From contig JAADYW010000159.1 of assembly GCA_010092845.1 (NCBI GenBank), positions 1 through 32,265 on the forward strand: 32,265 bases of DNA, written 5' to 3'. Within the stretch, counting starts at the first letter, position 1; each line of letters begins with the position of its first letter. Origin of the DNA: Chloroflexota bacterium (GTDB lineage: Bacteria > Chloroflexota > Anaerolineae > Aggregatilineales > J027). Made by a program: the position numbers and the translations under genes. The notes beneath the pieces were generated by a model. The model ran no database searches. It saw nothing but the letters and a program-made list of their open reading frames with translations, and was not told the origin of the DNA. This document shows, piece after piece, positions 9,370-20,894 of the stretch.

Positions 9370-9600
9370 ATGTCATCCTCACGCCCGGCTGAATACTATG
9401 CTTTTCTCCTCCGTTTCTGGCGGGAAGGTTCCGCGGGCGCAGAGTCTGGGGCAGCCATCTGCCGATTTAGCCTGGAGGACACCCAAACGGGCGAACGGTA
9501 TGGTTTCGCCGATTTCGAGTCTTTGGCCGCATTTGTGGTGAGTATGATGCAACGACAAGCCCGCTCTCAACGCAAGCCTGATGATAAGGAGAATCAATGA
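9370..9600 (+). CDS. Small conserved-type hypothetical protein (FLLRFWRE family)
   Basis: A 76-residue protein with the pattern 'YYAFLLRFWREG ... CRFSLEDTQTGERYGFADFESLAAFV'. I have the impression of similar small proteins in other Chloroflexota, often next to BTAD/STAND regulators, but cannot verify this. It has no signal peptide or membrane segment and is acidic-to-neutral with a basic, polar tail. Its stop overlaps the start of the next gene (ATGATGG context), so the two are co-translated. Function unknown; it may be a small partner or effector of the regulator upstream. Confidence 0.7.
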   Translation: MSSSRPAEYYAFLLRFWREGSAGAESGAAICRFSLEDTQTGERYGFADFESLAAFVVSMMQRQARSQRKPDDKENQ

Positions 9601-10190
9601 TGGAATACCCACTGACCTTGACCAAACGTATCGGGAAGATGAACGCTCGCCTGCATTTTGATGTCAAAGACGCCACCGGAAAACAGGTGATGCGCATCGA
9701 AGTGGACTCGCGCAAGCTCAATCAAAACGTGACCATTCCCGCGAATGACGCTAGCCCAATTTTTGATCTGCAGATCCAGTTCCATCGCAAAACTGGCCGG
9801 CAGTTGAGCGTGCGACTTCCCGACGGCCGCACCGTTGGCGAGGCGGTCCTACGCGGCAAGGGCCTAATGGCGGGCGAGGTCGTGTTGCACGACGCCACTG
9901 GCGCCCAAATCGGTACCATTGCCAGTGGTGATAGCTGGAAGACCGGTGCCAGCGTCGGCTTCATGACGCTATTCAGCGGCTTGCTGCCTCTCTTTGCACG
10001 GAACAAAGCCATGATCCCTACCTACAGGGTCACGCTACATGGTCGCGAGGCGCTCAAGCTGACGCCCAATAATAGAGGGATATCGACTGGTGAGGCGCGG
10101 CGCGTGATCGAGAAAGTAGGCGACGTGAAGCCTGAAGACGAACCATTAGTCTTGGGTGGGCTGTTTCTGATCGCGCCTCTCCTGACCTAG
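9597..10190 (+). CDS. Hypothetical protein, possibly tubby/LURP-one-like beta fold
   Basis: A 197-residue protein with AAGGAG 5 bases before the ATG. Most of it alternates short beta-strand-like segments with 'D..G' turns: 'LHFDVKDATGKQVMRIEVDS', 'LQIQFHRKTGRQLSVRLPDG', 'GEVVLHDATGAQIGTI'. This layout reminds me of the phospholipid-scramblase/LURP-one/tubby C-terminal fold, but the match is by layout only. A mildly hydrophobic stretch 'VGFMTLFSGLLPLF' and the C-terminal 'LVLGGLFLIAPLLT' could contact a membrane. It is second in the cassette facing the SARP regulator. Function not recognised. Confidence 0.6.
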   Translation: MMEYPLTLTKRIGKMNARLHFDVKDATGKQVMRIEVDSRKLNQNVTIPANDASPIFDLQIQFHRKTGRQLSVRLPDGRTVGEAVLRGKGLMAGEVVLHDATGAQIGTIASGDSWKTGASVGFMTLFSGLLPLFARNKAMIPTYRVTLHGREALKLTPNNRGISTGEARRVIEKVGDVKPEDEPLVLGGLFLIAPLLT

Positions 10191-10343: not shown

Positions 10344-11495
10344 ATGGCCGATAACGACCATCTGCTTACAAGCTACTTCTCTTTCACCCCCGCAGACTTG
10401 GATGCAAATCGTTCTGGTATGCTCTCGCCGGCACAGAGCCAGGTGCTTAATGCCAGAATCAGCGAGATGCAGCAGCAAGATAAGCAGACTCGGCGAACAG
10501 CGATTGCCTGTGCGCCACTCATGTTCTTAATCTTCACGGCTGTCTTTGCTGGCCGGCTTTTCTTTGCAGATGTTGCATTCGATGAATCGCTTCTGGTCCT
10601 GGGAATCCCACTTGGGATTTTGATCTTTGTCCTGGTCGTGAGCCTGCTATCCATAGGCCGGGCCACCAAGCGCGAGCGAGCTGGGTTTCTCGCTGGCCAA
10701 GTGCATCACGTTGAAGGTTCTGTCTCCATTCGGGCACTGGGTGGTGATGCGGATGGTAACCCGTTGTTTGCACTCCAAATTGGAGGTAAAACTTACGTGG
10801 AAGCGCTCAATCGCCAGCATTTTGACGAGGGTGCCTTCCATGCGCTCTCAGAGGGTTCTGTGGCTCGCGCTTATTATTTTGGCAACCGGTTGCTCTCCAT
10901 TGAGTTGATTGAATCGCAGAATATGCTCTATCCATCCCAACAGACTGATTCTCCTCCGCTGGGTCAGGCGTTCGTTTTCGACGCCACTGATCTCGCCGCC
11001 AATCGCATGGGTAATCTCAGTGAGGCCCAGCGTCAGCGCTTTTCCGCTGAAATGCGCTCGCCAGATCGGGCATGTCTGCTTATTGTACTCCTACTGGCTG
11101 CTGTCCCAGCGAGTATTCCTGTGGTGGCGTTGCTGACCAATGAGACTGAGAGTTTGCAGAGCGAAGCCGAGGCCAACCCTGTACTTCCGGTGATGTTGAT
11201 CGGGTTTAGTATAGTGGTTGCAGCGCTCGCATAATGGCTGGCGATTTCGGCAATCCGGACGCGTGTCGCTCTCCGGACGGGGAGTTTTGCCTATGGTACG
11301 GTGCGACCGATTGAAGGCGTTGTCAGAAAAAAGGAGTACTCACCAGGTGACGCCGAGACCACGGCGAGCTATCGTGTGCTGTGCGGCAGCACCTGGATTG
11401 ACCTCCGCCCTAGCGCGTATGAGGTGATCGAAGAAGGGCGTGCTTACCGGTTCTACCGGTATAAATGGACCGTAGTCTCAGCTGAGCCACTATAA
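10344..11495 (+). pseudogene. Duplicated-domain membrane protein interrupted by in-frame TAA (codon 297)
   Basis: The annotated ORF (10344-11234, 296 residues) stops at TAA 11232-11234, but the same frame stays open to 11495. The protein is two repeats. Each repeat begins 'FTPADLDANRSGMLSPAQ' or 'FDATDLAANRMGNLSEAQ', has two transmembrane helices, then a soluble beta-rich part. The first soluble part is 'GQVHHVEGSVSIRALGG'; its counterpart 'YGTVRPIEGVVRKKEYSPGD' lies beyond the stop. So a single base (TAA from, for example, TTA Leu within a transmembrane helix) truncates a 383-residue protein. It could be real truncation or a base-call error. The next gene starts 14 bases after 11495, consistent with an intact operon ancestor. 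Function unknown; the soluble parts look like small membrane-anchored beta domains. Confidence 0.75.
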
Positions 11496-11509: not shown

Positions 11510-12175
11510 ATGGCATCATTTCTCGACCATTTCACCGAGTATGTCGGTATGTCTTTCGCTCGGCAGCTCGCCCTATCAGATTATCTGGGGGAGTGTCGCT
11601 GGCAGGTCAATACTCTGGAGGGTGTCATCCGCTTTGAGAACAAGGGACAATACCCCATTCAGATCCTCGGGTCGGAATCTGACCTTGTAGGGACCTGGTT
11701 GTGGGCCTGGGCAAATGAGATGCTGATACGCGATGTGAAGCCCGACGTGCTGCGCGATGCACAAACCATGCGCCGCTATGGCGATCAGCATAGCATTGAA
11801 GAACTGACAGTAGCGGAGTTTGATCTGGATGGTCGTGCTGACGGGCATATGCTGTCGCAGTTGGCGGTGGGCGTTTGCAACGCAAACTGCTACTACCGTG
11901 GTCCCTATGATGAAGGGGCAAGCTTCTTCCTCTTGTATGACGTTCCGCTCGATCTCTTACCCATTCCAGTGGTACGCATCTCCACAGTAATCAGCGAGGT
12001 TACTGGCGTCTATCCCGTTGATCACCAGCGTATGGCTCATGCGTTCCTCACGCAGCAGGGATTCTCTATCTCTACCCAGGACTCTGAGTGGCTGGCCAAG
12101 CATGAAGATGGCCGCGAATTCCGTATCAGCTTTGACAGCGAACAGCGAATTGCTGAGATGAACTTTCAGGTGTAG
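11510..12175 (+). CDS. DUF6882-like protein
   Basis: A 221-residue soluble protein. The pattern 'FLDHFTEYVGMSFARQLALS', then 'CRWQVNTLEGVIRFEN', 'YPIQILGSESDLVGTWLWAW' and 'CNANCYYRGPYDEGASFFLL' matches what I know as DUF6882, an uncharacterised family. AGGAG lies 11 bases before the ATG. It is the last gene of the plus-strand cassette and ends 31 bases before a bidirectional terminator hairpin. The role is not known; related proteins often sit near SUKH-like or immunity-type genes, but nothing here proves that. Confidence 0.7.
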   Translation: MASFLDHFTEYVGMSFARQLALSDYLGECRWQVNTLEGVIRFENKGQYPIQILGSESDLVGTWLWAWANEMLIRDVKPDVLRDAQTMRRYGDQHSIEELTVAEFDLDGRADGHMLSQLAVGVCNANCYYRGPYDEGASFFLLYDVPLDLLPIPVVRISTVISEVTGVYPVDHQRMAHAFLTQQGFSISTQDSEWLAKHEDGREFRISFDSEQRIAEMNFQV

Positions 12176-12288: not shown

Positions 12289-12744
12289 CTATCCGGCCAT
12301 ACTGATGAGTCGAGTCCGCATATTATCCAGACGTGTGCCGATGACTCGCGACAATTGTTGCATGAGCTGATAGCCCCACTCAGGTCGTTCAGCCAGAAAG
12401 GCCCTCATCTTGACTGCATCGATAGCAATCAGTTTCGCTTCGCTGGAGGCTACTGCACTGAGTTTGTATTGATGTGGCTCTACTAGCGCCGACCACCCGA
12501 GCGGTTCGCCGGCTACGATAGTCTCGATCTCGGTGCGCGTCTCGCCGGTCTCGTCCATATCCATCAGCAGATCAACCGAACCCTCAAGCACGAGGAAGAG
12601 TTCGTCGGCGGTGTCTTTTTGCTGGAAGAGGTAGGTATCCTCTTCCAGGACTGTTTCTTCACAGAATTGGGCGATGTCGGCAAACATTTCAGGGGGTAAT
12701 CCTGCAAAAAGTTTGAAGCGTCGCAATAGTTCAGGTGAAATCAT
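12289..12744 (-). CDS. Stand-alone cyclic-nucleotide-binding-domain (Crp-like sensor) protein
   Basis: A 151-residue protein made only of a Crp/Fnr-type cNBD beta-barrel: 'LRRFKLFAGLPPEMFADIA', 'DTADELFLVLEGSVDLLMD', and 'VAGEPLGWSALVEPHQYKLS' at the phosphate-binding cassette. The cassette lacks the usual Arg that contacts cyclic-nucleotide phosphate, so cAMP binding is doubtful. There is no helix-turn-helix, so it cannot bind DNA in the Crp manner. Its start overlaps the stop of the maturation protease (ATGA), making it the last gene of the hdr-mvh operon. A regulatory or assembly role on the Hdr-Mvh complex is an inference from position. Confidence 0.85.
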   Translation of the reverse strand: MISPELLRRFKLFAGLPPEMFADIAQFCEETVLEEDTYLFQQKDTADELFLVLEGSVDLLMDMDETGETRTEIETIVAGEPLGWSALVEPHQYKLSAVASSEAKLIAIDAVKMRAFLAERPEWGYQLMQQLSRVIGTRLDNMRTRLISMAG

Positions 12745-13235
12745 TTTGTTTCCTGTTCTACGGAACTAGCCGGAATACTCAGCAGTCTAAAAACGGCGGT
12801 GCAGGCATCAGGCATGGCCGCCTGGACAGCCGGGGTAAGCTCTTCGCAAAAATCAAGGACCTGGTTAGCAGTTATCGCCACAATCTGAACGTGATGCATT
12901 TCGGGTAGTTTTGCCCCCAGTTCTCTGCCGATTCGCAAAGCTGTTGGCAGATCGGCATCGTGTGTGCTGCGGGTATTGAGCGTTTCAGGCAGATTCGACG
13001 CATCAAAGACGTGTACTTGCCCCGCCTGATCGGCCGGGGCCCACATCGCATCGATAATGATGACACGCTCGTAGCCGACCATATGCTCCATCAGCGTAAT
13101 GCCCCCGACGGATACTTCGATCACCTCAATCGGGCTCTCTTCTGGTAGCAACTCCTGGACCCGCCGCGCCGTGTAGATCCCAATACCGTCGTCGGACAGA
13201 ATCGGGTTGCCAAGGCCAATCACCAGTGTTTTCAT
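12741..13235 (-). CDS. [NiFe]-hydrogenase maturation endopeptidase
   Basis: A 164-residue HyaD/HycI/FrhD-type protease. It has 'LVIGLGNPILSDDGIGIYTA' at the N terminus with the nickel-binding acid in the family position, 'VIIIDAMWAP' for the second metal-binding acid, and 'THDADLPTAL' with the His ligand. This peptidase trims the C-terminal extension of the large subunit after the Ni-Fe site is loaded. It follows mvhA by 66 bases on the same strand and mvhA carries a 28-residue tail after its last ligand motif, so MvhA is the obvious substrate. The length is typical. It could be called FrhD/HyaD-like; I give no symbol because several names apply. Confidence 0.88.
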   Translation of the reverse strand: MKTLVIGLGNPILSDDGIGIYTARRVQELLPEESPIEVIEVSVGGITLMEHMVGYERVIIIDAMWAPADQAGQVHVFDASNLPETLNTRSTHDADLPTALRIGRELGAKLPEMHHVQIVAITANQVLDFCEELTPAVQAAMPDACTAVFRLLSIPASSVEQETK

Positions 13236-13253
13236 CGATGTTAATCCCGAGGA

Positions 13254-13278
13254 GTGCAGGACGTTAGGCGCCCTGCAC
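13254..13278 (-). repeat. Hairpin between mvhA and the protease, with degenerate REP-like box
   Basis: A 7-bp stem GTGCAGG/CCTGCAC (13254-13260, 13272-13278) flanks ACGTTAGGCGC. The loop is close to the ACGTTAGCGCC box of the two REP-like elements, with one extra G. It may be a degenerate third copy or an intra-operon processing stem. Confidence 0.35.
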
Positions 13279-13301
13279 CCGTACCTGATTCAGACTTCAA
13301 T

Positions 13302-14774
13302 TTAGGTTGTGTATTGCTCGCGGTGGTCAACCACCGTGCCATCAGGGCCAAAGATCACGACCTCGAGGGGCATTTGCCCGGGCAACGAGTGCGTAGCACA
13401 GCTAAAGCACGGATCGTAGCTACGGAATGCCATCTCCACCATATTGAGAATGCCGTCGGTCACGTTGCCAGCATGGATCAGTGAACTGGCGGCCTTCTTA
13501 ATGGTGTAGGTGATCGGGGCAAAGTTGTTGGTCGTCCCCACGATCAAATTGACTTTTGTCAGGATGCCGTTCTCATCTGTTTCATAGTGGTGGGTCAATG
13601 TGCCGCGTGGGGCCTCAACAGTGCCAATACCAACAGTTGGTGTCTCAGTTGGGATGGTGCGCACATTGGGGCTGGTGATTTCTTCATCGGTCGCCAGCTC
13701 CAGCATGCGCTCTGCAGCATAGAGAAGCTCGATCAAGCGTGCCCAATGGGTCGCCAGCGTATGATGCACCGGCTTGCCACCCAGTGTCTTGAACATTTCT
13801 TCATATGCTTCCTGAGCTTTGGGGGTCGCCATACCATCGGCAGCATTCAGCCGGCTAAGGGGTGTGCAGGCATACATCCCACTGTCCTTGCCGTCAGTGA
13901 AGCCTTTCCATCCGATCTTCTTCAAATACGGATATTTGAGATAGGCGTAGGGTTCCACGTGCTCGGCGATATGTTCGGTATAGTCCTGGGCGCGATATTT
14001 CGCGAACTCCTTGCCGTCGGGGTCAACAACGCGGATCATGCCATCGTAGAAGTTGACCTTATTGTTCTGGTCGACGAGGCCCATATAGTAGGTTTGCTGG
14101 GTATAGGTATCCCCAACAATCAAGTCAACATAGGCCTTGTTGGCTAGGACGATGTCACGGAAAATCTGCAGCGACCACAAGCCGAATTCCACGTTGTCGC
14201 GCGCCACCTTCTCCATGAACTGGCGTTCTTCTTCGTTAATCGCCTTGCTCATCCCACCGGGTAGCCCGGCGACAGGATGGACAGCGCGACCGCCGATGAT
14301 CTTGATGACTTCGTGGTTATGTTTGCGCGTGTTGATAACCTTCAGCCCAGCTTCTTTGCCGACCTTAGCAATCACCCCCAGGATGTTGCGTTCGGCCGCC
14401 GGCGCATCCGGTCCGACGACGAAGTCCGGCCCCCCCAATGCATAGAAGTGGGTGGTGTGATCTGTCACGTAGAAGGCGCTGTAGAACAGCTCGCGGAGCT
14501 TTTTGGCGGCTGAAGGCGGATCGACCTTGTAGAGATCGTCAAGGGCTTTGGCTGCTGCCATGTGGTGTGCCTCCGGGCAGACACCACAGATGCGGTTGGT
14601 GATGCGCGGCATTTCCTCGGCCGGTCGTCCCAAACAGAAGACCTCAAACCCACGCAGTTCAGGTACCTGGAAGTACGTGTTTTTGACCTCGCCTTGTTCG
14701 TCAAGGAAGATTTCGATTTTGCCGTGACCCTCCAGCCGGGTGATGGGATCAATGGTGATGCGTTGTGTCGTCAT
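13302..14774 (-). CDS. mvhA: F420-non-reducing [NiFe]-hydrogenase large subunit (MvhA, group 3c)
   Basis: A 490-residue catalytic large subunit that activates H2 at a Ni-Fe(CN)2CO site. The N-terminal L1 motif is 'RICGVCPEAHH'; the C-terminal L2 motif is 'DPCFSCATH', supplying all four Cys ligands, with Cys and not selenocysteine in each. After the L2 His there are 28 residues ('SLPGQMPLEVVIFGPDG...'), consistent with a tail cut by the adjacent maturation protease. The start is ATG 14774 with AGGAG 7 bases upstream; the ORF track's 580-residue version runs into mvhG in another frame and is wrong. It lies 10 bases after mvhG. Group 3c is inferred from the mvhD-mvhG-mvhA order and hdrA linkage. 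It is expected to be cytoplasmic, with no signal peptide on any subunit. Confidence 0.93.
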   Translation of the reverse strand: MTTQRITIDPITRLEGHGKIEIFLDEQGEVKNTYFQVPELRGFEVFCLGRPAEEMPRITNRICGVCPEAHHMAAAKALDDLYKVDPPSAAKKLRELFYSAFYVTDHTTHFYALGGPDFVVGPDAPAAERNILGVIAKVGKEAGLKVINTRKHNHEVIKIIGGRAVHPVAGLPGGMSKAINEEERQFMEKVARDNVEFGLWSLQIFRDIVLANKAYVDLIVGDTYTQQTYYMGLVDQNNKVNFYDGMIRVVDPDGKEFAKYRAQDYTEHIAEHVEPYAYLKYPYLKKIGWKGFTDGKDSGMYACTPLSRLNAADGMATPKAQEAYEEMFKTLGGKPVHHTLATHWARLIELLYAAERMLELATDEEITSPNVRTIPTETPTVGIGTVEAPRGTLTHHYETDENGILTKVNLIVGTTNNFAPITYTIKKAASSLIHAGNVTDGILNMVEMAFRSYDPCFSCATHSLPGQMPLEVVIFGPDGTVVDHREQYTT

Positions 14775-14784
14775 GGCTTCTCTC

Positions 14785-15813
14785 CTAGTCCTTGAGCTTG
14801 GGGTCCAAGCGTGGGGTTTCCTTGATCTGGGCGGCCATTTTCTGACCGTTCTCCATTTCAAGGCGTGTGCGATGCAGCATCGAATGGGCCAACCCAAAAC
14901 GATAGAAATAGCCTGCCGGGTCTGGCAGCGTATCCAGGATTTTGTCAATCTCTTCGGGGGAGTTGGCATCCAGCACCGAAGCGAGTGCGCTGATGAGTTT
15001 GGCCCCACCATCGATAACGCCTTCATTGGGGCCGTAACAGCCACGGCACCCCATATTCACACTCGGGCAAAGGGCGCCACAACCAGCACGTGTTGCAATG
15101 CCGGCGCAAAATAGCCCTTGATCGAGTAGGCATTTGTCAGGATCGGGGATGATCTCATAGGGGCGATAGAAGTGCGAGATCTTCTTCTCTTCTCTTTCGC
15201 GGGGGCATTCGTCGCAAACCGTGACATCCATACCGACAACTGTTCCTGGCGGGGGGAGTTCCCCGGCCATAACGGCCTCGACCAGAGCTTCGATCCATTT
15301 GGCTTCTGGCGGACATCCTGGAAGGTAGTATTCCACCGGGACCACCTGATCGAGTGTCTTGACGGTATTCCAGAAGCCTGGCAGCTCGAGTTCACCTTCC
15401 GCGACCTGGATTGCCTCGAGGGGAATGATCCCTTCAGGATTGACGACGGTGGGCGCGTCCTTGTAGATGAAGTTCATCATCTGCTCGCGGTCATTGAAGT
15501 TCGCCAACCCTGGCGCGCAACCTTCTGTTGCGCAGCTACCGAAGGCGACCAGGACCTGGCTCTTGCGGCGGAGTAGCTCGGCCATTTCCAGATTCTCGTC
15601 GGTGCGGATCGCGCCGTTGAACAGCGTCACCGCGATCTCACCGTCTTCCAACGCCTCAATATCGGATCGCTTGAAATCCAAAATACAGGGACAGAAGATG
15701 AAATCAAAATAGTCTGCCACATCCAGGATTTTCTCGTGAATGGCCAGGATCGCAATTTCACAACCTCCGCAGGAGGATGCCCAGTAGATAGCTAGTTTCG
15801 GTTTATCACCCAT
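14785..15813 (-). CDS. mvhG: F420-non-reducing [NiFe]-hydrogenase small subunit (MvhG)
   Basis: A 342-residue electron-transfer subunit carrying three Fe-S clusters from the Ni-Fe site to MvhD. The proximal cluster ligands are in 'SSCGGCE', 'FGSCATEGCAPG' and 'LPGCPPEAKW'. The C-terminal Cys-rich part 'CLLDQGLFCAGIATRAGCG' and 'NMGCRGCYGPNEG' holds the medial and distal clusters. There is no Tat signal, unlike respiratory hydrogenases, so the enzyme is cytoplasmic. I chose ATG 15813, with AGGAGG 6 bases upstream; the 15-residue extension in the ORF track is arginine-rich translated leader. The start overlaps the end of mvhD by 8 bases, so translation is coupled. Confidence 0.93.
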   Translation of the reverse strand: MGDKPKLAIYWASSCGGCEIAILAIHEKILDVADYFDFIFCPCILDFKRSDIEALEDGEIAVTLFNGAIRTDENLEMAELLRRKSQVLVAFGSCATEGCAPGLANFNDREQMMNFIYKDAPTVVNPEGIIPLEAIQVAEGELELPGFWNTVKTLDQVVPVEYYLPGCPPEAKWIEALVEAVMAGELPPPGTVVGMDVTVCDECPREREEKKISHFYRPYEIIPDPDKCLLDQGLFCAGIATRAGCGALCPSVNMGCRGCYGPNEGVIDGGAKLISALASVLDANSPEEIDKILDTLPDPAGYFYRFGLAHSMLHRTRLEMENGQKMAAQIKETPRLDPKLKD

Positions 15814-16306
15814 GTGTGGCCTCCTTCTCCGGCAAAGGCGGGAGGTGTGGCGACGCATCGTGATTGTTATCGTGCCACTTCAGCGGTCCCAACTTCGCAA
15901 TTTTCTCGGTCATCTCTTTGACAGTTTCAGTGAAGATAATGCCCTGTGCAGCCGAGGCCCAACCGAGTTGGACGCGATCAGGGTGGACACCGAGCTGGCT
16001 CAGGGTGCGGCGCAGCAGTGCCACACGGCGCATTGCTTTGAAGTTGCCCTCTTCATAATGGCACTGACCAGGGTGGCATCCCATAACGAGTACGCCATCG
16101 GCGCCTTCACGTAGCGCTTTGATGACAAAGGTTGGGTCCAGGCGGCCGGTGCACATGATACGGATGTCACGCAGTGTAGCCGGGTAGCCGAAACGGCTGG
16201 TCCCGGCCAGGTCAGCGGCACGATACGAGCACCAGTTGCAGAGGAACCCAATGATCACGGGGGATCTATCCCCCCACGCTGGATGGTATTGTTTATAGTC
16301 AACCAT
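15806..16306 (-). CDS. mvhD: Hydrogenase/heterodisulfide reductase delta subunit (MvhD)
   Basis: A 166-residue [2Fe-2S] protein that links the hydrogenase MvhAG to HdrA. The family Cys pattern is intact: 'GFLCNWCSYRAAD', 'IMCTGRLDP' and 'MGCHPGQCHYEEGN'. Its length and the single domain match MvhD and not the longer FlpD or HdrA-MvhD fusions. It starts 13 bases after the stop of hdrA and its end overlaps mvhG. Its position exactly between hdrA and mvhG supports a physical Hdr-MvhD-MvhGA electron path. A histidine-rich tail ('WHDNNHDASPHL') is unusual but without known meaning. Confidence 0.93.
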   Translation of the reverse strand: MVDYKQYHPAWGDRSPVIIGFLCNWCSYRAADLAGTSRFGYPATLRDIRIMCTGRLDPTFVIKALREGADGVLVMGCHPGQCHYEEGNFKAMRRVALLRRTLSQLGVHPDRVQLGWASAAQGIIFTETVKEMTEKIAKLGPLKWHDNNHDASPHLPPLPEKEATHG

Positions 16307-16319
16307 GTCTCAATTCCTC

Positions 16320-18347
16320 CTAAACCGGTTCCGTCTTTTGGAAAGTAACTTTTTCTTCGCCGTTGGGCCGCACATCCCACAGAAGACCTTCGATCTGCGA
16401 CATGATTGAGTTGAAGGTATAGTGCTGCCCATCGATTACCTGGCTGGGGCAAGCGGCGACACACGTGCCACATCCCTTGCACAGAGCCGGATTCACGCGG
16501 CTAACAGCGAGATCTTCCAGGAAGTCGATGGCATTATAGGGGCACAGATTGTTGCAGATACGACAACCTGAGCAACGGTCTTCGTCGATGTGGGCGCGCA
16601 CGGGTTCGATTTCAACTTCACCTTTGCCGATCAAACTCAGCACTCGCGAAGCGGCAGCGGCACCCTGGGACACACTTGCCGGAATATCCTTCGGCCCCTG
16701 ACATACACCAGCGATGAAAATACCGGCATTCATTGTCGCGATGGGGTCCAGCTTGGGGTGGCTCTCGTTGAAGAAACCAGCATCCGAGCAGCCAATACCA
16801 AAGCGGTGCGAGACCTCTTGCGAGTCGTGGCGCGGTTGCATACCCGCCATTAGAATCACCATGTCAACCGGAATCCGGCGCTGCTTGCCGATGAGGGTGT
16901 CTTCGGCTTGGACGATTAGCTTGCCAACTTCCTCCGGTTTGCGGGCCGCATCGGTTACCTCGGCGGCACGTCCACGAATGAAATGCGTACCTTCCTGCAT
17001 CAGCCGGTTGTAGAAGGTCTCGTAGTCCTTAGGCGCAGTCCGCATGTCGATGTAGAAATTATAGACTTCGGCATCGGTCTTTTCCTTGACCAGGTGGGCG
17101 AACTTGAGGGCGGCCATACAGCAGATGGCTGAACAGTAATCGTTGGTGTTCTTGTCGCGGCTGCCAATGCAGTGCAGAATCGCAACGCTTTTCGGCTCAG
17201 TGACGCCATCGCGCAACAGGACCTTGCCGTCGGTTGGGCCGGAGGCGTTGGTCATACGCTCGAATTCGAGGCTGGTGAAGACATTGGCCAAACGTCCATA
17301 GCCGTACTGTGGCAAACGCCGGGAGTCGAATAGATCGTAACCGGTGGCGAGCACGATGTTGCCGACCGAAGTAACGATGATCTCGTCTTCCTGGTCGAAC
17401 TTGATCGCGTCTGTCGGGCAGAACTTCTCGCAGGCGCGGCAACGACCGTTCTTGAAGTAGATACAGCTCTCGGTATCGATGACTGGATACTTCGGGACGG
17501 CCTGCGGGAAGGGCCGATAGACCGCAGTTCGGTAGCCCAGGCCGGCTTCATAGACGGTATCTACCACTTTGGCGGGGCAACGCTCCCAGCAATCACCGCA
17601 ACCCGTGCAGAGATCAACATCAATCATGCGCGCTTTCTTGCGGATCCTGACCGTGAAGTTGCCGACATACCCGTCCACTTGCTCAACTTCGCTGTAGGTC
17701 ATCAGCTCGATATTCGGGTGATTGCCTACGTCGAACATCTTCGGCGTTAGAATACAGGCGGAGCAATCCAGCGTCGGAAAGGTCTTGTCAAACTGGGCCA
17801 TGTGCCCGCCAATACTTGGTTCGCGCTCGACCAGGATGACCTTGTAGCCCGCATTTGCAATCTCAAGAGCCGTATTGATTCCGGCAATACCACCGCCGAC
17901 GACCAGCGTGGTCTCGTCAATGGGTGCGCGGAATGGCTCGAGGGGTTCGAGCTCCCGGGCACGGCTGACTGCGCCACTGACAATGGATTTGGCTTTCTCG
18001 GTGGCTGCTTCACCGTCGTCCTGGTGGACCCAGCTTGCATGCTCACGGATATTGGCCATTTCAAACAGATACGGATTCAAGCCCGCCCGCGAACACGCCC
18101 CGCGAAAGGTCGGCTCGTGCATGTGCGGTGAACAGGCGGCGACGACAACACGACTTAGCCCCTGTTCGGCAATATCTTCTTCGATAAGCTCTTGACCGAG
18201 GCTTGAACACATAAATTTATAGTCTTTTGAAACCGTAACATTCGGAAGAGACTTCGCCCATTCGGCGACTCCCTCCACATCGACTGTACCGGCGATGTTA
18301 TGGCCACAATGGCAGATATAGACACCAATTTTCTCTTCTTCGCTCAT
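16320..18347 (-). CDS. hdrA: Heterodisulfide reductase subunit A (HdrA), electron-bifurcating flavoprotein
   Basis: A 675-residue iron-sulfur flavoprotein. In order: an N-terminal domain with 'GVYICHCGHNIAGTVD' and 'YKFMCSSLGQELI'; a thioredoxin-reductase-like FAD domain starting 'VVGGGIAGINTALEIANAG'; 'DCSACILTPKM'; an inserted ferredoxin domain ('CTGCGDCWERCPAKV' and 'CRACEKFCPTDAI'); and a C-terminal two-cluster ferredoxin ('CSGCRICNNLCPYNAI', 'CKGCGTCVAACPSQVI'). In methanogens the FAD bifurcates electrons between ferredoxin and heterodisulfide. Size and domain order match full-length HdrA. ATG 18347 has GGAGGG 8 bases upstream and overlaps the hdrB stop (TGATG); the listed GTG adds one residue. 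Confidence 0.95.
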   Translation of the reverse strand: MSEEEKIGVYICHCGHNIAGTVDVEGVAEWAKSLPNVTVSKDYKFMCSSLGQELIEEDIAEQGLSRVVVAACSPHMHEPTFRGACSRAGLNPYLFEMANIREHASWVHQDDGEAATEKAKSIVSGAVSRARELEPLEPFRAPIDETTLVVGGGIAGINTALEIANAGYKVILVEREPSIGGHMAQFDKTFPTLDCSACILTPKMFDVGNHPNIELMTYSEVEQVDGYVGNFTVRIRKKARMIDVDLCTGCGDCWERCPAKVVDTVYEAGLGYRTAVYRPFPQAVPKYPVIDTESCIYFKNGRCRACEKFCPTDAIKFDQEDEIIVTSVGNIVLATGYDLFDSRRLPQYGYGRLANVFTSLEFERMTNASGPTDGKVLLRDGVTEPKSVAILHCIGSRDKNTNDYCSAICCMAALKFAHLVKEKTDAEVYNFYIDMRTAPKDYETFYNRLMQEGTHFIRGRAAEVTDAARKPEEVGKLIVQAEDTLIGKQRRIPVDMVILMAGMQPRHDSQEVSHRFGIGCSDAGFFNESHPKLDPIATMNAGIFIAGVCQGPKDIPASVSQGAAAASRVLSLIGKGEVEIEPVRAHIDEDRCSGCRICNNLCPYNAIDFLEDLAVSRVNPALCKGCGTCVAACPSQVIDGQHYTFNSIMSQIEGLLWDVRPNGEEKVTFQKTEPV

Positions 18348-19321
18348 CACTCATTCCCTCCGCTGTCCATTGATGGCATCGGCAGAGCCTTCTTATCCCG
18401 GCGTTTCGGGCGTTCGCGCGTTTTCTGCTCATCCACGGTGCCAATCTTGGCGAGGGCTGGTCCTGCGGGGATGATTTCACTCCCCAGGCCAAGCGCGTTT
18501 TCGCTCAACCCAAAAGCGATGCCCATTAATTGTGTGAAGAATAGCACTGGAATGTGGAAGTTCGTCCCAAACATGCGGTTAACTTCGTTCTGATAGGCGT
18601 CCAGATTAAGCTGGCACATCGGACACAGGGTGACAATGGCATCAGCACCGTAGTCACTCGCGTTTTGTAGGAGGCGACGGATGAGCTCGTAGGCGGTCTC
18701 TTCGCTGATCTGTGTCATATGGCCGCCACAGCAGTGCGTCTTCATGGGGAAGTCAACAACATCCGCCCCCAGGGTCACCATCAACTCGTCGAGATGAGTC
18801 GGGTATTCGGTGTTGTAACCCGTCTCAGGGCGTACAATCAAGCAGCCGTAGTAGGGGGCTACCTTGATACCGCTGAGGGGTTTGGTCACTTTCGTCTTGA
18901 TCTGCTCAAGTCCGACATCTTCAATTACCACATCCAGCAGGTGCCTCACATTAAGCGCACCGGCTTCATACGACAAGCCGCCAGCAGCAAGGGCCTGGTT
19001 AACCTGGCTGTTCAAATCCTTGTACTTGGACATGTAGTCGTTGGTCTTGCGCAGATTGAGGAAGCAAGCGCTACAGGGCGCCACCAGGTCCTGCGAGCCA
19101 TTCGATTGCACTGCTAGCGACAAATTGCGAGCTACCAGGCTATAGGCGGGCAACGCATCGACACTGAAGTACTCGGTTGCGCCACAACAATTCCAGTCGT
19201 CAATTTCATTAAACGTCAAGCCGAGCTGTTTATTCACGGCTTGCATCGATTCGTCATAGGCGTGTGCTGTCGCTTGAAGCGAGCAGCCCGGATAGTACGT
19301 ATAGGTTCGGCTATTCTCCAT
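18347..19321 (-). CDS. hdrB: Heterodisulfide reductase subunit B (HdrB)
   Basis: A 324-residue subunit that reduces the disulfide at two non-cubane [4Fe-4S] clusters. Both CCG domains (Cx(n)CCGx(n)CxxC) are complete: 'YYPGCSLQ', 'NCCGATEYF', 'PCSACFLNL', then 'YYGCLIVRP', 'HCCGGHMTQ', 'CPMCQLNLD'. This argues that the enzyme can handle a true disulfide or related two-electron acceptor. The C-terminal tail 'KTRERPKRRDKKALPMP' is a charged extension beyond the usual family end. Translation is coupled to hdrA by a TGATG overlap and hdrC lies 2 bases upstream. The physiological acceptor is unknown, as no methyl-CoM chemistry is in view. Confidence 0.95.
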   Translation of the reverse strand: MENSRTYTYYPGCSLQATAHAYDESMQAVNKQLGLTFNEIDDWNCCGATEYFSVDALPAYSLVARNLSLAVQSNGSQDLVAPCSACFLNLRKTNDYMSKYKDLNSQVNQALAAGGLSYEAGALNVRHLLDVVIEDVGLEQIKTKVTKPLSGIKVAPYYGCLIVRPETGYNTEYPTHLDELMVTLGADVVDFPMKTHCCGGHMTQISEETAYELIRRLLQNASDYGADAIVTLCPMCQLNLDAYQNEVNRMFGTNFHIPVLFFTQLMGIAFGLSENALGLGSEIIPAGPALAKIGTVDEQKTRERPKRRDKKALPMPSMDSGGNE

Positions 19322-19323
19322 TG

Positions 19324-19887
19324 TCAGGCCTCCTGCCGGGCAATGCGCTTAGCTTCTTTTAGGATGGCTGTTAGCTGGGGAAGGTTGTTAATCTTCTCCG
19401 GCGTAACGTTGAGGCGGCCTTTACGCATCATGCTGAAGCCCAGGCCACCTTTACGCAACATGCTCAGCGGGTGGTGTGTCAGGTGATAGCGTGTGGCCAG
19501 ACCGAACTCAAAACTCCGCCCGTACCGCTCGACGTAACCGATGAAGCTCTCGGAAAAGGCGGCGTGGGAGTCCTGATGGTATTTGCCGGCCTGAATGGCC
19601 TTTTGCTTGATGGCGTACATGAGATCAGTGATGGGGATATCTTGTGGACAGCGGACGGTGCAGTAATAGCAAGATACGCAGTACCACGGCGTATTGCTCT
19701 CAAGCACATCTTTGTCCATCCCGGCGGAGAGCAGAGCAAAAAGGCGGCGGGGGGTGGAATCCATATCCGCGCCTGACGGGCAGGAACCACCACAGGTTCC
19801 GCACTGCAGACACGTAATCAGGGTTTCACCTCCTGGTGTTTCCGCCATGACCTGCTCGAACAGTCCTCGTTCTGAGGTCTTGGGCAT
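19324..19887 (-). CDS. hdrC: Heterodisulfide reductase subunit C (HdrC)
   Basis: A 187-residue electron-transfer protein with two [4Fe-4S] ferredoxin motifs, 'CLQCGTCGGSCPSG' and 'CVSCYYCTVRCPQD', which carry electrons from HdrA to HdrB. The helical C-terminal part ('YGRSFEFGLATRYHLTHH...') is typical for HdrC. There is no membrane-spanning domain, so this is the soluble HdrC and not the HdrE-linked type. ATG 19887 is chosen because AAGGAAGG lies about 5 bases upstream; the ORF track start at 19962 is not supported. It is the first gene of the hdrCBA-mvhDGA operon, so the promoter must lie between it and the flavodoxin-like gene. Confidence 0.94.
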   Translation of the reverse strand: MPKTSERGLFEQVMAETPGGETLITCLQCGTCGGSCPSGADMDSTPRRLFALLSAGMDKDVLESNTPWYCVSCYYCTVRCPQDIPITDLMYAIKQKAIQAGKYHQDSHAAFSESFIGYVERYGRSFEFGLATRYHLTHHPLSMLRKGGLGFSMMRKGRLNVTPEKINNLPQLTAILKEAKRIARQEA

Positions 19888-20256: not shown

Positions 20257-20375
20257 ATGAGTGACATCGCGGCGGGATCGAATCGTAGTTTCGACTCTGC
20301 TTCCGCTTTTTGCCAGGCGAGCGGGAACGCGACAGTATTGCCAGGAGTTATTCAAATGTGTTAGTGGAGGTCGGT

Positions 20376-20894
20376 GTGAAAGAGAAATATCTGGTTACTT
20401 ATGCATCGCGCTATGGTTCTACGGCAGAAATTGCCCAGCATATTGCTGGGATCCTTGCGAAGCAGGGTTGGACCGTGGACACAAAGCCTGTTTCCGAAGT
20501 TGAAGACCTCGAAATCTATCGGGGGGTTTTGATCGGCAGTGCAATCTACTCTGGCGAATGGGACCAGGCCGCGGTCGAGTTTATCAAGGCGCAACAGCGA
20601 TTATTAGAGGGCTTGCCGCTGGCCATCTTCATGGTTGGCATGCGCCTGCGAGATCAATCCGAGGAGATGCGCAGCACGGTCCTGGCGCAGTTTGAAGTCT
20701 ACCAGGTGATGTTGAAACCGCTCGCGATCGGGCTCTTCGCCGGTGCTCTGTTCTATGACAAGCTTTCGCCGATTGTGCGTTTGCAGCTCAAAGGTAAAGG
20801 GTTACCCGAAGGCGATTTCCGCGACTGGAGTGCGATTGAGCGCTGGGCGGAATCGCTGCCCGGATTGTTTGCATCAACTGAGGCGGCTGAGTAA
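20376..20894 (+). CDS. Flavodoxin-domain protein
   Basis: A 172-residue single-domain flavodoxin-like protein. The FMN phosphate loop is 'VTYASRYGSTAEIAQHIAG', followed by 'GVLIGSAIYSGEWDQAAVEF', as in the flavodoxin_5/HemG-like group. The 'LFAGALFYDKLSPIVRL' segment also matches that group. It may carry electrons or act as a menaquinone-dependent protoporphyrinogen oxidase-like enzyme; the sequence does not decide. The GTG at 20376 is chosen because GTGGAGG lies 5 bases upstream; the longer ORF start is poorly supported. It is transcribed divergently from the hdr-mvh operon, sharing the Rex-like control region, so it is a plausible electron partner. Confidence 0.85.
   Translation: MKEKYLVTYASRYGSTAEIAQHIAGILAKQGWTVDTKPVSEVEDLEIYRGVLIGSAIYSGEWDQAAVEFIKAQQRLLEGLPLAIFMVGMRLRDQSEEMRSTVLAQFEVYQVMLKPLAIGLFAGALFYDKLSPIVRLQLKGKGLPEGDFRDWSAIERWAESLPGLFASTEAAE

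Follow-up and report, generated by a model that had tools for sequence, protein, structure and literature searches.

The presence of a heterodisulfide reductase coupled to a hydrogenase in a bacterial genome raises the question of where the complex came from and what its Hdr arm would reduce. The operon considered here lies in the window (the whole 32,265-nucleotide stretch of DNA that was analysed), which is contig 72 of a 3.86-Mb genome that is 92% complete; the host is, judged by sequence kinship, an Anaerolineae-type Chloroflexota. The operon resembles the methanogen HdrABC-MvhAGD complex of Methanothermococcus thermolithotrophicus (PDB 5ODC) in its six subunits, cofactor ligands, HdrA bifurcation residues and HdrB fold. 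It is itself of a known kind. Bacterial group 3c Mvh-Hdr operons, partly from the same phylum, have been described (PMC6085437; in MAGs, PMC6472368, PMC8359207, PMC7509429), and Mvh-Hdr in bacteria and Chloroflexota is already on record (PMC6085437, PMC8359207, PMC6472368). What group 3c hydrogenases do in bacteria has been stated to be unresolved (PMC6472368), and a small literature search found no report of the activity of a bacterial HdrABC-MvhADG.

Organization of the operon

Positions 12289-19887 of the minus strand hold a single intact operon, hdrC-hdrB-hdrA-mvhD-mvhG-mvhA, followed by genes for a maturation protease and a small cNMP-binding protein. All eight reading frames are open and closely packed, with overlaps or short gaps, the widest being the 66 bp between mvhA and the protease gene. 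An earlier sequence-only reading had described six complete, tightly coupled subunit genes with their cluster cysteines and a protease gene after mvhA, and the open reading frames, Pfam matches and cysteine sets agree with that description. Its span also holds as one operon, but 12289-12744 encodes the cNMP-binding protein and not a subunit of the complex, and the starts of mvhG and mvhA had to be corrected.

The product of hdrC (19324-19887) carries motifs for two [4Fe-4S] clusters (CLQCGTCGGSC and CVSCYYCTVRC; Fer4 Pfam hits). A 2-bp gap separates it from hdrB (18347-19321), which encodes two CCG domains with all 10 cysteines (CCG, 1.5e-26). The overlap of hdrB with hdrA (16320-18347) is 1 bp, or 4 bp if the latter starts at the GTG at 18350; HdrA has an FAD/thioredoxin-reductase fold with N-terminal, inserted and C-terminal ferredoxin domains. 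After 13 bp follows mvhD (15806-16306; PF02662, 7.6e-51), the sole FlpD gene of the genome, encoding the [2Fe-2S] link between hydrogenase and HdrA. For mvhG (14785-15813; phmmer 9.2e-67 to 5odc_E), the hydrogenase small subunit gene, the start at 15813 (8-bp overlap) is likelier than the ATG at 15858 (53 bp). The [NiFe] large subunit gene mvhA (13302-14774; NiFeSe_Hases, 2.3e-39; phmmer 3.8e-112 to 5odc_F) follows after 10 bp; a start at 15044 was rejected, the longer frame being a mechanical extension. The maturation endopeptidase (12741-13235) belongs to the HycI family (PF01750, 1.6e-11; TIGR00072, 5.1e-31) and is overlapped by 4 bp by the last gene (12289-12744), whose 151-aa product is a stand-alone cNMP-binding domain (PF00027, 2e-12) and is likely regulatory.

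Genes for cNMP-binding proteins also adjoin mvhA or the protease gene in at least 12 other related 3c loci, and a stand-alone one is encoded in this genome's group 3b hydrogenase operon as well (L013:7195-7653); neither the 3c nor the 3b proteins contain a recognised DNA-binding domain. To the left of the operon, on the plus strand, lie two reading frames without Pfam hit (9597-10190 and 10344-11234) and one for a DUF6882 protein (11510-12175). An electron-carrier role was considered for the flavodoxin-like gene at 20310-20894, which is divergent from hdrC, and was rejected, the gene being nearby in no relative. Within the window, no gene for a disulfide, a thiol pathway or a ferredoxin was linked to the operon. 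Elsewhere, with groups assigned from the gene neighbourhoods, the genome encodes a large subunit of group 1 type next to a CCG protein, the group 3b-type operon, another operon of HoxEFUYH type and a group 4/Nuo-like set. At a contig edge, locus L012 (G000 contig 218) has a large subunit of group 1 type next to a protease and a protein with a single CCG domain.

Cofactor ligands and mechanism residues

The cluster cysteines are complete in HdrB (10 of 10, so that both CCG domains are intact, as had been claimed), HdrC (8) and MvhD (5), and MvhA has the four conserved [NiFe] cysteines. The cysteine sets of HdrA are likewise complete, with a 5-residue insertion in one motif (CIYFKNGRCRACEKFC). 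The closest solved relatives of HdrA (5odc_A, phmmer E 1e-224), HdrB and MvhG are methanogen Hdr/Mvh subunits; that of MvhA is another NiFe hydrogenase, 7t2r, with 5odc next. None of the Hdr or Mvh subunits reached the NCBIfam cut-offs of the methanogen CoB-CoM heterodisulfide reductase. HdrB scored 195 bits against 345, HdrC (TIGR03290) 83.6 against 160, and the VhuA model gave 404 against 800. HdrA scored 592 against cut-offs of 1300-1400, and 840 against 1100 for the HdrA2 model, where a low score is expected because that model includes MvhD.

By alignment, E364 and K416 of HdrA (GTG numbering) correspond to E356 and K409 of the M. thermolithotrophicus enzyme, and equivalents are present in all 72 aligned HdrA sequences, including that of the window. 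These two residues have been proposed to separate bifurcating from non-bifurcating HdrA (PMC12054007). In MvhA, the L1 motif RICGVCPEAH matches the group 3c pattern ICGxCxxxH, and L2 (SYDPCFSCATH) differs from AYDPCxxCATH (PMC6085437) in its first residue only; a C-terminal peptide extends past CATH.

Seven relatives from several phyla (L070, L083, L103, L110, L113, L133 and L146) have an in-frame TGA at the second cysteine of L1 (RICGV-TGA-P), corresponding to position 66 of the window MvhA, which is a cysteine; the residue at this L1 position bridges Ni and Fe. Each of the seven codons is followed, at the same distance, by a 6-7 bp hairpin with a 6-nt loop. The same hairpin score is reached by 19 of 105 Cys-type mvhA genes, the stem standing at another position in those high-scoring rows that were listed. 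The pattern suggests a candidate selenocysteine at this position in the seven relatives. A TGA is also found at the CxxU position of HdrA (199) in L113, L097, L140 and L203, and at Cys77 of MvhD in L113 and L110, L113 thereby having candidate selenocysteine codons for three subunits (HdrA, MvhD and MvhA) in a single operon. Selenocysteine is already known from the HdrA and MvhD families, and a review lists MvhA/VhuU selenocysteine only as UxxC (PMC13188914).

The HdrB subunit

At its second CC pair the window HdrB reads CCGGHMTQI, whereas the methanogen protein of 5ODC reads CCGAGGGVRS, and an LPMP tail is added. In the HdrB tree (67 rows), the 29 rows with the HMTQI motif, a few of which differ at one residue (e.g., HLTQI or HMNQI), formed a single clade with a support of 99. 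A C-terminal LP[ML]P tail occurs in 28 of these 29 rows and in none of the others in the set. The clade is marked by E50, H201, M202, T203, Q204 and L313-P314-x-P316; E50 and 201-204 stand just after the two CC pairs, and it is at these five residues that the pocket differs from that of methanogens. A small literature search found no description of these HdrB subtypes, and the new element here is the HMTQI/LPMP HdrB as one clade, well supported in the sequence tree.

All ten cysteines are kept in every relative with a full-length HdrB. By ligand order, Cys86 and Cys236 correspond to the displaceable Cys81 and Cys234, the fifth cysteines of the two CCG domains, which in Hdr are displaced by the substrate (PMC13083937). 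Ligation by H201 in the manner of EtfD was considered and rejected; the EtfD histidine is in the other CCG domain, just ahead of its last cysteine (PMC13083937). In the AlphaFold model (mean pLDDT 90.6) the core is confident, and the tail is probably flexible in isolation since its pLDDT is low (block means 66, 55 and 48). Foldseek ranked 7bkb_B and 5odc_B first for this model (5odc_B, TM 0.83/0.92).

Proposed function and electron acceptor

The reading that we prefer, with a probability of about 0.7, is a reversible H2:ferredoxin:disulfide oxidoreductase, i.e., a native bacterial, soluble HdrABC-MvhADG whose disulfide partner would be other than CoM-S-S-CoB. A group 3c-like [NiFe] hydrogenase would be joined to Hdr, and MvhA would turn over H2; by way of MvhG and MvhD the electrons would reach the FAD of HdrA. 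There they would be split, or joined in the reverse direction, between ferredoxin and the HdrC-HdrB branch, which would reduce (or re-oxidise) the disulfide. Direct support covers the complete parts, the cofactor ligands, the HdrA residue pair, the displaceable cysteines of HdrB, the conservation of the operon and its bacterial ancestry; bifurcation, ferredoxin as the low-potential partner and disulfide chemistry are all three what we infer. A catalytic, disulfide-cleaving HdrB is favoured because both fifth cysteines are kept, unlike in EtfD; disulfide chemistry is, however, not assured, because the pocket departs from that of methanogens at E50 and H201-Q204. For the direction we lean slightly towards net H2 production in anoxic fermentation, with reduced ferredoxin from POR-type oxidoreductases (three POR-family loci are present in the genome) and a dithiol as the possible electron sources; H2 uptake is nearly as likely. 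The sequence-only reading left the acceptor unnamed and allowed either direction, rightly in our judgement.

It is unlikely, though it deserves attention, that the Hdr arm serves instead as an electron wire to a non-disulfide acceptor, such as menaquinone, a flavoprotein or another enzyme, in the manner of EtfD, SdhE-type fumarate reductase or the MetVF-linked HdrCBA of acetogens. The best HdrB-family NCBIfam score, 206 bits, was indeed that of SdhE, which is a subunit of a quinone-linked fumarate reductase (the HdrB model gave 195), and the genome encodes a COX1/COX2 heme-copper terminal oxidase, therefore a respiratory chain exists in the host. Related CCG proteins feed quinone pools (PMC13083937), and the HdrCBA-MvhD of Sporomusa binds MetVF (PMC9430772). 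However, the displaceable cysteine arrangement is lost in EtfD, where His and Thr have been substituted (PMC13083937), while the present HdrB retains its ten cysteines, and the operon has no membrane-spanning subunit. The acetogen complex (PMC9430772) does share the HdrCBA-MvhD module, but MetV (PF12225) had no match in the window's genome, where a hydrogenase stands in the operon instead. The CODH/hybrid-cluster family PF03063 had no match in the genome either.

DsrC is a known proposed partner of Hdr. A disulfide partner of the DsrC type, as proposed for the Hdr complexes of sulfate reducers, is nevertheless very improbable here: the family (PF04358) had no match in a search of the genome with an E. 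coli positive control, an absence that is not absolute because the genome is 92% complete.

Origin and distribution

That the operon is archaeal contamination or was recently acquired from a methanogen, readings for which the gene architecture equal to that of methanogens would speak, is hardly credible, given tetranucleotide correlations with the genome's own contigs (window, 0.97; operon, 0.91) that exceed the 0.64-0.81 of loci from other genomes, and given the positions of MvhA and HdrA among bacteria. The operon is native to its host genome. In the MvhA tree (126 rows) the window fell in a 51-row clade of Chloroflexota and other bacteria (SH-aLRT 99), the archaeal rows and 5ODC standing outside it and 5ODC on a distant branch. 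In the HdrA tree (72 rows; both are quick trees without bootstrap) it fell in a 33-row clade of Chloroflexota and one Planctomycetota (100), away from two methanogen HdrA. The Hdr and Mvh sequences did not cluster with methanogens in the MvhA, HdrB or HdrA trees. Bacterial homologues share 60-74% identity with the window MvhA, and for HdrB the identity to the methanogen protein is about 31%. Judged from these sequences, the operon is bacterial, not methanogen-type, by descent. "Methanogen-type", as the sequence-only reading had it, is thus right for the architecture and wrong for the ancestry, while its Chloroflexota host stands: the archaeal bin or clade and the contamination that it had named as contrary outcomes were looked for, and a bacterial genome, fitting composition and MvhA and HdrA nested with Chloroflexota were found. 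A CoM/CoB pathway is not to be expected in a bacterium, and the complex differs from that of methanogens in its bacterial MvhA clade and in having no expected CoM/CoB partner. A clade of Chloroflexi and Proteobacteria MvhA has been reported, with transfer from a methanogen suggested (PMC6085437).

Matches to MvhA at E <= 1e-60 were found in 79 of 301 Chloroflexota genomes, a set that takes in HoxH-type hydrogenases. The close type (>=60% identity) is present in 32 of the 301, this one included (31 of 300 others), and the order hdrCBA-mvhDGA-protease is kept in most relatives in which the operon is fully visible. Named genomes were scanned as well; the close type occurs there across many bacterial phyla, and some archaea have it too, including Bathyarchaeota and Thermoplasmata. 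Its presence in a bacterium is ordinary, because about one in ten sampled Chloroflexota has a close homologue and the literature records bacterial Mvh-Hdr. Mvh has been tied to obligate anaerobes (PMC6085437), whereas the window genome and 23 of its 31 close-type relatives have a heme-copper oxidase family gene, a count that takes in NO reductases.

Possible exchange of hdrCB

A sister HdrB type (CCGGSLI and similar; support 100) is combined with the same HdrA-MvhDGA core in seven close relatives. A histidine kinase and two response regulators lie just upstream of hdrC in all seven of these loci but in only one of the 29 HMTQI rows (L091), counts that include mutually related rows and some loci truncated by the end of a contig. 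The two HdrB types interleave on the MvhA tree, where six changes are needed and four are forced by strongly supported branches, support inside the interleaving group being partly weak; the six changes are no fewer than with shuffled labels. This suggests that the hdrCB pair was exchanged between lineages under a stable core, or that the core itself moved. The HdrB variant, this possible exchange and the co-occurring terminal oxidase had been overlooked in the sequence-only reading.

The HMTQI-type locus of one relative (G192, L203) has hdrCBA-mvhD without mvhGA, therefore the Hdr-MvhD module is separable from the hydrogenase. Its neighbours are a gene of FNR-like, NAD(P)-binding type, one for a PFL-like enzyme and one for a protein of the GcvH family, and in the last it resembles the sHdr-LbpA system of sulfur oxidation, in which Hdr proteins occur with a GcvH-like lipoyl carrier (PMC6067878). 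The window operon, in contrast, has no adjoining lipoyl carrier and encodes a full HdrABC-Mvh, not sHdr proteins; the two GcvH-family loci of its genome lie outside the window. A lipoyl-carrier protein is one candidate partner of the HMTQI-type complex, but only a lead, because the GcvH neighbour was found at one locus (L203) among about 130 searched. In the Sporomusa MetVF system, lipoate and glutathione gave no effect (PMC9430772).

A tentative and somewhat doubtful extension of the disulfide reading is that the HMTQI/LPMP HdrB would mark an H2:ferredoxin:X complex with a dedicated disulfide partner, hdrC-hdrB being a swappable acceptor cassette on the HdrA-MvhDGA core, also in bacteria with terminal oxidases. 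The co-occurrence of heme-copper oxidases questions the tie of the complex to strict anaerobes. The apparent natural swaps of two HdrB types on one core offer a direct route to the missing acceptor, for which lineages or complexes that differ mainly in HdrCB can be compared.
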